Below are positions 16,205-20,404 of a stretch of DNA of 54,994 nucleotides, one piece after another. Each line of letters opens with the position of its first letter. Within the stretch, counting starts at the first letter, position 1. This stretch comes from Planctomycetaceae bacterium (GTDB lineage Bacteria; Planctomycetota; Planctomycetia; Pirellulales; PALSA-1355), in assembly GCA_003153375.1 (NCBI GenBank), contig PLYM01000261.1:4832-59825 (forward strand), written 5' to 3'. The translations under genes and the position numbers were made by a program. Below the pieces are notes generated by a model. The model saw only the letters and a program-made list of their open reading frames with translations, ran no database searches and had not been told where the DNA came from.

Positions 16205-16831
16205 ATGGCTCGTATCACTGGACCCGTCTGTCGACTCTGCCGTCGCGACGGTCTCAAGCTGTTTCTCAAGGGGACGCGTTGCGATACCCCGAAGTGTGCC
16301 ATCGAGCGCCGCGACACCGCGCCGGGCATGCACCAATATCGTCGCGGCAAGCAGACCGATTACGGTCTGCACCTGCGTGAAAAGCAAAAGGTCAAGCATT
16401 ACTACGGCGTGCTGGAGCGTCAGTTCCGCGGATATTTCAGCCGGGCCACGCGCACCAAGGGCAATACCGGCAGCGCGCTGATGAGCCTGTTGGAGCGCCG
16501 CTTGGACAACATCGTGCATCGGCTGGGCTTCGGCTCGAGTCGGGCCCAGGCCCGGCAATTGGTCTCCCACGGCCACATCACGGTCAACGGCCAGCACGTG
16601 AACGTGCCCAGCTATATTGTGCGGGCTGGCGACGTGATTCGCGTGAAGAACCGAACCAAGAGCCTGCAGATGGTGCAAGCCAATCTGTCGGAACATCGCC
16701 GCACGGTGCCTGATTTCCTGACCATGATCGAAGGTGGAATTCCCGAGGGCCGCGTGGTGCGAATGCCCGAGGCCGACGATATTTCGATCCCCGTGCAAGT
16801 ACAACTGATCATCGAGCTCTGCTCGCAGTAA
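16205..16831 (+). CDS. rpsD: 30S ribosomal protein S4, zinc form
   Basis: Primary 16S rRNA-binding protein and, in E. coli, translational repressor of the alpha operon. The 208-residue product has Cys9-x2-Cys12 and Cys26-x4-Cys31 (PVCRLCRR and TRCDTPKCAIE), the zinc-knuckle pattern known from Thermus S4. The S4 domain reads RLDNIVHRLGFGSSRAQARQLVSHGHI. The 3' end is the first unit of a three-copy repeat that continues past the stop. Confidence 0.97.
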   Translation: MARITGPVCRLCRRDGLKLFLKGTRCDTPKCAIERRDTAPGMHQYRRGKQTDYGLHLREKQKVKHYYGVLERQFRGYFSRATRTKGNTGSALMSLLERRLDNIVHRLGFGSSRAQARQLVSHGHITVNGQHVNVPSYIVRAGDVIRVKNRTKSLQMVQANLSEHRRTVPDFLTMIEGGIPEGRVVRMPEADDISIPVQVQLIIELCSQ

Positions 16832-16880
16832 TTTGGAGCTTTGCTGGCAGTTATTATCGAGCTTTGCTCGCAGTAGTTTG
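16811..16880 (+). repeat. Three-copy tandem repeat of the rpsD 3' end
   Basis: The last rpsD codons and stop (16811-16835, ATCGAGCTCTGCTCGCAGTA plus ATTTG) are repeated as a shorter copy at 16836-16855 (GAGCTTTGCTGGCAGTTATT) and a nearly full copy at 16856-16880 (ATCGAGCTTTGCTCGCAGTA plus GTTTG). Copies 1 and 3 match at 23 of 25 positions. The period is 22-23 bases measured at GAGCT. Confidence 0.75.
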
Positions 16881-16995
16881 GCATCGCAACCCTTGCTCGT
16901 GCCCCGTTACGCGTCCAATCTACCCCTGAAACCGAAACCACCCGTTGGCCCCCCACCCGCATTCCCGGGGCCGCTGCTTGTTACGGAGGCTTGTT

Positions 16996-18054: not shown

Positions 18055-18633
18055 ATGCGACATCGACGAAAAGGCCGCACGCTCGGCCGTTCACCGTCCC
18101 ACCAGCGAGCATTGCTCAAGAATCTGGCCAGTAGCCTGTTCCTCACCGAACGGGATGCCGACGACGATGACAACAAGCCCAAGGTCAAGGGGCGGATCGT
18201 CACCACCGTGCAGAAGGCCAAGGAGGTGCGGCCGCTGGTCGAACGCTGCATCACGCTCGCTCGCAAAACCCTGCCGGCTCAGCAGGAAGCCCAGAAGCAT
18301 GGCACCACCGCCGCGCGCAATACCGAAACTTGGAAGACCTGGCGAAAGAGCGAGGCTTACCAGAAGTGGAACCAAGCCATCGCGCCGGTGGTCAATGCGC
18401 GGCGCCGCGCGTTGCAACTGTTGGGCGACAAGCAGGCGGTGAGAATCTTGTTCGCCGAGGTGGCGCCTCGCTTCACCGACCGTCCGGGCGGTTACACCCG
18501 CGTATTGCGGCTCGCCAAGCCACGCTTGGGCGATGCCGGCACCCGCGCGATCCTCGAGTTCGTCGGTGTTCGCGATCGCGTTTCGCAACGCGCCGTGCGT
18601 CCGACGTTCGAAGCGGCCGAGGCCGGAAAATAG
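18055..18633 (+). CDS. rplQ: 50S ribosomal protein L17, long form with insertions
   Basis: L17 lies near the tunnel exit. The product begins MRHRRKGRTLGRSPSHQRALLKNLA and has the family segments GRIVTTVQKAKEVRPLVERCITLAR and FADRPGGYTR-type RFTDRPGGYTRVLRL. At 192 residues it is well above the usual 115-130. There is an acidic insertion around residues 32-45 (DADDDDNKPKVK) and an insertion of about 40 residues (72-112, Trp/Lys rich, KTWRKSEAYQKWNQAI) before VNARRRAL. It ends the ribosomal cluster. Confidence 0.94.
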   Translation: MRHRRKGRTLGRSPSHQRALLKNLASSLFLTERDADDDDNKPKVKGRIVTTVQKAKEVRPLVERCITLARKTLPAQQEAQKHGTTAARNTETWKTWRKSEAYQKWNQAIAPVVNARRRALQLLGDKQAVRILFAEVAPRFTDRPGGYTRVLRLAKPRLGDAGTRAILEFVGVRDRVSQRAVRPTFEAAEAGK

Positions 18634-18685
18634 TCTTCGGCTGCTCGCTCCAGAGTGTATTGCCCTCGTTCATGGAGGACGTGGC

Positions 18686-19294
18686 ATGGCTGGCGGCTCG
18701 CAGGCACAACGCCCGCGCGATGGTCGTGGCTTCGACTTCACGTTGCACATGCGGCGTTTGTGCGCCGATCTGACACGCCGCCTCGACGAGTTGGCCCACA
18801 TCGACATCGACCGCGTGGCGATCCGCTTTTGCCAGGCCCGCAAGGCCGTCCGCCATGGCATTCACGCCAGTCTCACCCCGTTGCGGTTTGAGCGCGGCGA
18901 ATTGTTCCTCAGGCAGCGTGGGCGCATCATGACGGTTGAGCGGCTCTATGACGTCACGGGCCGTGAGATGCTCTACCTGCTCAGTTTCTACCTGCCGCGT
19001 TTTCTGGAGCGGCCCTTCGAGGACAAGCTAACCACGGTCGTTCACGAGTTGTGGCACATCGGCCCAGCATTCGACGGCGACCTGCGCCGGCATCCCGGGC
19101 GCTGTTACGCTCACAGCCATTCGCAGAAGCAATACGACGCCCTGATGCGCGAGCTGTCGTTGAAGTGGCTGTCGCTCGCTCCGCCGCCCGAGACGCATGA
19201 CTTTTTGCGATTCAACTTCGCGGAGTTGGAACGAACTCGTGGACCGATTTTCGGACAGAAGATTCCCACGCCCAAGTTGCTGCGCGCCAGCTAA
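18686..19294 (+). CDS. Putative HExxH zinc metallopeptidase
   Basis: A 202-residue protein with the zinc-protease motif HELWH at residues 120-124, followed by IGPAFDGDLRRHPGRCYAHSHSQKQYDALM, which supplies further His residues as possible third ligands. No signal peptide or membrane segment is seen, so it is probably cytoplasmic. The ATG at 18686 has GGAGGAC 5-6 bases upstream and is preferred over the longer open frame. It resembles the small 'putative metallopeptidase' families found near housekeeping genes, but the substrate is unknown. It lies 52 bases after rplQ and may be cotranscribed with it. Confidence 0.65.
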   Translation: MAGGSQAQRPRDGRGFDFTLHMRRLCADLTRRLDELAHIDIDRVAIRFCQARKAVRHGIHASLTPLRFERGELFLRQRGRIMTVERLYDVTGREMLYLLSFYLPRFLERPFEDKLTTVVHELWHIGPAFDGDLRRHPGRCYAHSHSQKQYDALMRELSLKWLSLAPPPETHDFLRFNFAELERTRGPIFGQKIPTPKLLRAS

Positions 19295-19330
19295 GCTAGC
19301 ACTGCTCACGACCGGGCGCGACTTCTTTTG

Positions 19331-19365
19331 GGGTGCCACTGCTGGCTCGTCCAGCAGTGGCACCC
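19331..19365. repeat. Perfect 35-base palindromic hairpin, REP-like
   Basis: Arms GGGTGCCACTGCTGG (19331-19345) and CCAGCAGTGGCACCC (19351-19365) are exact reverse complements over 15 bases with a five-base loop CTCGT. It lies 36 bases after the metallopeptidase stop. There is no T-run on either strand, so it is not a standard intrinsic terminator. The shape fits a dispersed extragenic palindrome. Confidence 0.75.
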
Positions 19366-19433
19366 AGGCAGGAGCCGGGCGTGCGGCAACGTGTTGCCCT
19401 GGGATCATTCGCACCGGCGGCGTCACTCTTCGG

Positions 19434-19463
19434 TTGACATGCTTGGGCGATCGCCGTTAACCT
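19434..19463 (+). promoter_or_regulatory. Promoter for the lipoprotein gene
   Basis: A perfect -35 box TTGACA (19434-19439), an 18-base spacer and a -10 box TAACCT (19458-19463, with T1, A2 and T6 conserved). It lies 65 bases before the ATG at 19529 and after the palindrome, so the lipoprotein gene probably has its own transcript. Confidence 0.6.
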
Positions 19464-19528
19464 ACGCCCCTCACGTCGTTAGCGGAATTTCACTTCGCTG
19501 TTTCGCGGTTCTCCGCTGGATACCTGGC

Positions 19529-20404
19529 ATGTCGTTGTCCCTGCGCGCGCTGATGCTGTTTGTGCTCGTGCTCGGCACGACGGGCTGCCGGCTCGTCGAT
19601 GCGCCCAAGGGCCGTTCGCCGCTGCTGCCCGTCACGGCTTCGGCTGACGCGGTCACGCTGGAAATCTTTTCGGCTCCCACGGCGCTTGGCAATCCTCAGC
19701 TGACGGCCATGTGGGCTCAGGTCGACGAGCAGCCGCTGCCGGCCGAGCTGCGCCGCAAGCTGGCGCAAAACGGGCTGCGCGCCGGCGTGGTGGGCCCCGG
19801 CTTGCCCGACGCGCTGGTCGACTTACTCAAAGTCACCGACGAGCGCGTCGCCAGCGAAAAGCGAGATACCGTTCCCTTGGAGACCGAGGCGGGGGTCGTG
19901 CTGCGCGTCATGCAGCCGCGACTTGGCAAGCGGCACGAACAGGTCGTGTCGCAAACGTACGACGAGCTCTCGCTGTTGCGCAGCGTCGACGGCCATGTCG
20001 AGGGGCGCACATACTACAAGGCCGATGCGCGCTTCGAGATGCGCGTGTTTGTCGAGGACGACAGCCGCGTACGGCTCGAGTTGATGCCCGAGCTACACCA
20101 CGGCGAGTTCAAGAACCGCTTCGCTTCGAGCGAGGCGATGTTGATCATGAAACAGGAGCGGCAGCGGCAGATCTTCGAGGACCTGAAACTGACTGCCACG
20201 CTGGCGCCGGGCCAGATGTTCGTCATCACCTGCCTGCCGAACATGCCCGGTAGCATTGGCCATTACTTCTTCACGCAGCTCAATGGCGACAAGCCGGTGC
20301 AGAAGCTGTATGTGATTCGCGTGGCGCAGGCGAGCCCGGACCGCGCGTTTTGGGAGGTTCCCAAGCAGGCGGGCGGCGAACTTTCGAGTGATCTGGCCGA
20401 GTGA
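19529..20404 (+). CDS. Hypothetical lipoprotein
   Basis: A 291-residue product of unknown function. The N-terminus MSLSLRALMLFVLVLGTTGC is a lipoprotein signal with lipobox LGTTGC, so it is probably exported and lipid-anchored. The rest is soluble; LETEAGVVLRVMQPRLGKRHEQV and FEMRVFVEDDSRVRLELMPELHHGEFKNRF suggest a beta-rich domain. The ATG at 19529 is chosen because it begins the signal peptide. It is convergent with the aldolase gene, with seven bases between stops. No family was recognised. Confidence 0.75.
   Translation: MSLSLRALMLFVLVLGTTGCRLVDAPKGRSPLLPVTASADAVTLEIFSAPTALGNPQLTAMWAQVDEQPLPAELRRKLAQNGLRAGVVGPGLPDALVDLLKVTDERVASEKRDTVPLETEAGVVLRVMQPRLGKRHEQVVSQTYDELSLLRSVDGHVEGRTYYKADARFEMRVFVEDDSRVRLELMPELHHGEFKNRFASSEAMLIMKQERQRQIFEDLKLTATLAPGQMFVITCLPNMPGSIGHYFFTQLNGDKPVQKLYVIRVAQASPDRAFWEVPKQAGGELSSDLAE

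Follow-up and report, generated by a model that had tools for sequence, protein, structure and literature searches.

The window, by which we mean the whole stretch of 54,994 nucleotides analyzed here from a Planctomycetaceae bacterium (genome G000), holds a palindrome at 19331-19365. As the first-pass annotation had described, its sequence, GGGTGCCACTGCTGG-CTCGT-CCAGCAGTGGCACCC, forms 15 perfect pairs around a 5-base loop. By parts, it reads GGGTGC-CACTGCTGG-CTCGT-CCAGCAGTG-GCACCC. The features at the locus are as follows.

18533..19294, + strand: upstream gene with no Pfam or NCBIfam match and a true start probably further downstream; its stop lies 36 bp before the element
19331..19365, no strand assigned: whole element, a perfect palindrome (arms of 15 bases, loop of 5), read as a REP doublet that has collapsed to the 'double foot' form
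19331..19336, + strand: tag GGGTGC in the + strand reading, conserved 5' of the hairpin in 55 units of the same genome selected for ≤2 tag mismatches
19337..19345, + strand: left arm of the REP hairpin, CACTGCTGG
19346..19350, + strand: loop CTCGT (the commonest loop of the family is CTTGT)
19351..19359, + strand: right arm of the REP hairpin, CCAGCAGTG
19360..19365, - strand: second tag, GGGTGC on the - strand and GCACCC on the + strand; by comparison with doublets, probably the other outer end of a former doublet
19529..20404, + strand: downstream gene with no Pfam or NCBIfam match, its start chosen against the orthologue in genome G001

The palindrome is the longest perfect hairpin of the window at loop sizes of 3-8 bases, and the runner-up has 9 pairs. 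In 60 windows simulated with a first-order model, arms reached at most 13 bases, compared with 15 in the palindrome. When folded as single-stranded DNA, the element reached -21.1 kcal/mol (z -6.6), a value equaled by none of 200 shuffles. These results bear out the earlier statement that the arms go far beyond chance. An Rfam search returned a single chance match, far under its cut-off.

Both flanking genes are on the + strand. The upstream gene ends at 19294 and the downstream gene starts at about 19529, ~160 bp past the palindrome, which agrees with the gap between same-strand genes annotated at first. The order of rpoA, rplQ, gene A, gene B, and an fba-like gene (names that we take from our own reading of the ORFs) is identical in G001, a congener, and in G003, from the same family. 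The closest relative belongs to another species, its RpoA being 94% identical. The element is absent at the corresponding place in G001 and G003, the two nearest relatives with the same gene order: no REP trace was found in their orthologous gaps, where 166 of 300 and 121 of 300 simulated sequences, respectively, scored equally high. Old REP remnants had been suspected by eye in these gaps (GGACGAGCC in G001 and GCTGGCGCGTCC in G003), and neither exceeds simulated sequence. Elsewhere in the window, at the end of the gene preceding rpoA, a 29-base direct repeat (16808-16836 and 16853-16881, 90% alike and 45 bp apart) is a local duplication of the gene end.

The first-pass annotation had named uniqueness in the genome as the outcome that would speak against a dispersed element. 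The hairpin CACTGCTGG-N5-CCAGCAGTG proved to be far from unique: with ≤1 mismatch, 49 copies were detected in the genome of the window, 42 of them exact, compared with 0 in the backwards control. With ≤3 mismatches, the numbers were 61 and 16, respectively. The 13-base arm GTGCCACTGCTGG occurs exactly 50 times in the 6.7-Mb genome; when one mismatch was allowed, the arm was much less informative (82 occurrences versus 53 in the backwards control).

The majority of copies are inverted pairs ~67-75 bp long with GGGTGC at both outer ends, and 18 strict doublets were counted, their spacers measuring 21-30 bp. The second unit of a doublet is the reverse complement of the first, including the loop, and the doublet is therefore able to fold into one long hairpin. 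Two doublets that were folded gave z values of about -10 and -11. In addition, 6 of 153 spacer pairs scored higher than the best of 20 shuffled sets. Because spacers are common to different sites, whole doublets, beyond single REPs, appear to have been copied. Conservation begins sharply at -6, the first tag base, and ends at +22, the last hairpin base. The tag logo was built from the 55 of 108 strand-readings with ≤2 tag mismatches, and the tag conservation thus comes partly from this choice of units; among these selected units, the last tag base was C in 52 of 55, G in 2, and T in 1, and the preceding base was G in 55 of 55. The anatomy, dispersal, doublet structure, and shared spacers of the copies are those of a REP doublet (REPIN) family. 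What spreads is most likely the inverted doublet, which refines the earlier reading of a single palindrome.

The positions of the copies relative to genes were also examined. None of 32 sites lay within a predicted gene, compared with 71% of random positions, and 25 of the 32 were ≤150 bp 3' of a stop codon, compared with 40% of random intergenic positions. These statistics rest on crude hexamer-score gene calls trained on ORFs of the window (29 in the first version), with no gene finder. A first version without start trimming gave 20 of 32 sites intergenic, 9 overlapping, and 3 inside predicted ORFs; the count of 0 of 32 was obtained after start trimming, which favors the extragenic reading, and with 2 mismatches allowed in place of the former 4. 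Together, the 49 units and the 0 of 32 sites within predicted genes support the annotated dispersed, extragenic, REP-like element.

Similar palindromes were also suspected at first to recur in planctomycete genomes, and they do. The hairpin was detected in 27 of 57 genomes searched, including that of the window, at up to 237 copies. When the GGTGC tag was required and no mismatch was allowed, the hairpin was found in 12 of 392 genomes sampled across the entire phylum: the genome of the window, others of its order and of its class, and one that falls outside this class. Another REP family, which shares the GGTGC tag and has a CATGC[CT]CACG hairpin, was observed in 13 of the 57 genomes. It has 15 exact matches in the genome of the window (for example, at G000:C29:15159, C38:12481, and C130:7202), and no cognate RAYT of this family was detected there.

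We then turned to the enzymes. Y1 transposases were found by PF01797 search in 12 of 12 relatives searched. At one locus (L078, G012:C178), a RAYT gene is surrounded by four window-type hairpins. Its protein scored 99.9 bits against the model of REP-associated tyrosine transposases (NF047646, cut-off 80), and its only relative of solved structure in the PDB at E ≤ 1 was E. coli TnpA_REP (4er8, E 6.7e-7). Matches to this RAYT were found in 39 of 57 genomes. Both histidines of the HUH motif are invariant in 9 aligned RAYTs, and a tyrosine aligns to Y115 of E. coli in 114 of 117 sequences, an alignment that excludes eight rows and the named proteins shorter than 170 aa. Within the 50 RAYT-matching loci fetched, intact RAYT genes flanked by the window-type hairpin were present in G012, G017, G038, G023 (three genes), and G048, the last from a mismatch-tolerant scan. 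Thus, among the loci fetched, only 5 of the 27 hairpin-positive genomes contain an intact RAYT flanked by the window-type hairpin, and the hairpin is linked to RAYT genes in relatives.

Three further loci were observed in this survey. In G034, which has 19 units, a short RAYT fragment lies between two inverted window-type hairpins (L164, G034:C353:23499-27600) and is a decaying REPtron. G011 has 124 units, yet the lineage RAYT locus fetched from it (L102) is flanked by CACTGGTGG hairpins. In G003, tandem 15-base units (GGGTGCCACTGCGCA) consisting of tag and half-stem stand just before a RAYT gene (L105, 1241-1300).

By contrast with these relatives, no cognate RAYT match at E ≤ 1e-3 was obtained in the genome of the window, which is 96% complete; the best match of a RAYT profile search was an IS200-type gene (E 0.062). 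Most of its copies are exact, although no RAYT of the lineage was found there by sequence. The gene may lie in sequence that the assembly lacks, it may have been lost recently, or an unrecognized enzyme may act in trans. Spread by a RAYT-type transposase, which the first-pass annotation had suggested, is backed by the hairpin-flanked RAYT genes of relatives.

The stability of the hairpin and the location of 25 of 32 sites ≤150 bp 3' of a stop codon would also suit an intrinsic or bidirectional terminator, or a stabilizer of mRNA 3' ends, that is selected at gene ends and spread by recombination only. An intrinsic terminator consists of a G+C-rich stem followed by a T-run, and the window copy has no T-run on either strand. 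A terminator scan of 19200-19700 found no terminator at the palindrome; its one hit was a weak site elsewhere, and shuffles gave hits about as often, in agreement with the earlier statement that the palindrome is not a terminator on either strand. Moreover, spacers are common to sites at different genes, and the identical hairpin flanks transposase genes in relatives. We consider this explanation very improbable, and a secondary role of the hairpin in RNA stability is possible.

A second explanation, to which we give slightly less weight still, is that the palindrome is the end or solo remnant of an IS200/IS605 element, with one of the two Y1 transposases in the same genome as its TnpA.

G000:C185:851-1189 (L031) and C137:366-698 (L032), no strand assigned: IS200-like Y1 transposases in the genome of the window, with no hairpin of the window family nearby

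The C185 protein passes the NCBIfam cut-off for IS200 (60.2 versus 55). However, the C137 protein is under that cut-off, both are far under the RAYT cut-off, and neither locus has the hairpin even at 4 substitutions. The left and right ends of IS605 elements differ, unlike the symmetric inverted doublets formed by the copies. Also, there is no gene inside the palindrome, and the candidate was rejected.

From its layout, the window copy is read as a collapsed doublet, with one hairpin and a tag on each side. Loss of the DNA between the CCAGCAGTG (or CACTGCTGG) repeats of a doublet would leave exactly this layout, a hairpin preceded by the left tag and followed by the right tag's complement. The same form occurs elsewhere in the genome, exactly at G000:C261:27409, with one mismatch at C273:23951, and with a one-base deletion on C88. 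It was also found exactly in one case in G020, and in G207 the pattern matches both strands at a single place, which is the collapsed form. Among the 57 genomes, the exact collapsed copies amount to 2 in G000 and 1 in G020. The converse history, in which the single double-tagged hairpin came first and gave rise to doublets through duplication, could draw on the presence of the single form in more than one species but is highly unlikely, since doublets dominate the genome of the window (18 strict) and have spacers in common, and the exact collapsed copies are few and scattered, as repeated independent deletions would give.

The palindrome is thus very probably a decayed, non-autonomous, collapsed REPIN associated with RAYT-type enzymes. 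The intact unit is an inverted pair of 29-base REPs (GGGTGC followed by CACTGCTGG-CTTGT-CCAGCAGTG), about 22 bp apart with the tags outward. We infer the following history from sequence comparison. RAYTs are HUH single-strand endonucleases of the Y1/IS200 superfamily, and such an enzyme most likely recognizes the tag and hairpin on single-stranded DNA and would copy or move the doublet to new places between genes, for the most part immediately 3' of a gene. The middle of the window copy would then have been lost, most simply when the 9-base repeats CCAGCAGTG (or CACTGCTGG) of the two units recombined or mispaired by slippage. Because its tags can pair with each other, the resulting copy is probably immobile.

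The tags and hairpins of related RAYT loci were compared next. A total of 124 loci were scanned for recurrent perfect hairpins, comprising 43 from genome searches, 80 named relatives, and an E. coli control, and including some genes present in two collections. Recurrent perfect hairpins were found at 72 of the 124, and 61 of these 72 have GTGC or GTGG tags. The E. coli rayT positive control gave no recurrent hairpin in this perfect-stem scan, presumably because E. coli REP stems are bulged and the scan demands perfect stems. At one locus of a different RAYT lineage with a WQA-KYYGFN motif (L165, G023:C162), the recurrent hairpins that the scan reported had GTAG tags, and this genome also contains GTGC-tagged types. 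The hosts of the 80 named relatives include Pirellulales, Phycisphaerae, Paludisphaera soli, and a Brocadiia MAG, as well as a few Zixiibacteriota and Electryonea MAGs.

RAYTs that are related to each other have hairpins that are likewise related (CACTGCCGG, CACTGGTGG, CACTGGCGG, CACTGGCG, CACTGGC, CATGCCCACG, CATGCTCACG, and CATGGCCACG). Hairpin types cluster on the tree built from 45 RAYTs: they require 20 changes, compared with a mean of 29.2 for shuffled types, and none of 200 shuffles was as low; here, 14 rows without a hairpin type were counted as their own group, and the short or distant L120-L122, L126, and L164 were left out. The window hairpin type does not form one clade on this tree (3 changes).

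The tag of the window family ends in GTGC, which is neither GTAG or GT[AG]G nor CGTC, and thus differs from the GTAG that known TnpA_REP enzymes need. We tentatively propose, with rather less than even confidence, that Planctomycetota and some neighboring phyla hold a separate RAYT lineage with the motif WQxG-[GP]-G-[YF]-DRN, in which the guide GTGC replaces GTAG, the cleavage dinucleotide shifts from CT/CA to GC/GA by an IS608-type guide rule, and the tag stays fixed while hairpins diversify with the RAYTs. In the guide test reported for Marinomonas TnpA_REP, GTAC gave GA and GT cleavage (PMC8266576); by analogy with this rule, GC or GA cleavage is predicted for a GTGC guide. The bases preceding the tag (-10 to -7) are pyrimidine-rich, with at most 0.4 bits, and do not obviously show such a GC/GA cleavage site. 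As for the residues that contact the guide in E. coli, alignments to the lineage disagree around WQ, and the R104 position is variable (T in 33, R in 12, and F in 12 of 117).

How a RAYT recognizes and spreads its own hairpin is an open question for REPs. If the proposal is true, a fixed tag with diversifying hairpins would provide a natural series for reading the enzyme-hairpin recognition code. In the loci compared, a single enzyme lineage whose tag is nearly fixed has diverged into many enzyme-hairpin pairs (CACTGCTGG, CACTGCCGG, CACTGGCGG, CACTGGC, CATGCCCACG, and more). Some of these pairs stand side by side within one genome, and specificity swaps are thereby directly testable. The change of tag from GTAG to GTGC likewise offers a test of the guide-sequence model.

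Listings of the literature on REP, RAYT, and REPIN in Planctomycetes, Rhodopirellula, and Pirellula contained no paper that we recognized as dealing with the element, and the listing for the string CACTGCTGGCTTG contained unrelated papers only. The REP tags given in the published texts are GTAG or GT[AG]G and CGTC (PMC3733652, PMC6006769), together with CnGA for class 3. The GTAG and CGTC superfamilies of Di Nocera et al. 2013 (PMC3733652) share with the window family a stem-loop of similar size and a conserved unpaired tag at one end, and their dimers are described as mostly 20-100 bp apart, like the doublets of the window family. Rhodopirellula baltica REP families are mentioned there under GTAG. 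In that text, the degenerate tags of the GTAG superfamily all end in G, whereas the window tag ends in GTGC, and this description sets the two apart. TnpA_Y1 subclass 2.6 and class 3 (PMC6006769) resemble the present loci in that hairpins lacking GT[AG]G flank their RAYT-like genes, and class 3 is reported mainly from Planctomycetes. By its main-text description, however, class 3 has a CnGA foot and weaker structures, in contrast to the GGGTGC tag and strong stems of the window family. As far as checked, the planctomycete RAYT/REP lineage described here, whose tag is its own and whose hairpins co-vary with the enzymes, is new, being set apart from the published families by their texts, figures and supplements aside; GTGC-tagged planctomycete repeats may already be listed in the figures or supplements of PMC3733652 or PMC6006769.

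The closest system in organization is the REPIN/BIME with its RAYT (TnpA_REP), as described by Bertels and Rainey 2011 (PMC3116915). Both consist of short tagged palindromes in spaced inverted doublets with intergenic dispersal; in both, RAYT genes (for the window family, those of relatives) are flanked by their own hairpin type, and single hairpins are attributed to internal deletion. The window family differs in its tag and stem and in the lack of a detectable RAYT of its type in the genome of the window. The same authors mention, as unpublished observations in Pseudomonas fluorescens SBW25, long palindromes that a REPIN gives rise to when a deletion occurs between its two REPs (PMC3116915). 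Similarly, Quentin et al. 2018 describe 'double foot' REPs of TnpA_Y1 subclass 2.4, possibly derived from central deletion of an inverted dimer (PMC6006769). These have the layout of the window copy, a hairpin that stands between a tag and the complement of that tag, although their tag is GT[AG]G rather than GTGC, and in the window family the doublet is common and the double-tagged form, derived from it, is rare. The window copy itself is likeliest an ordinary relic of a form already described in published REP work.
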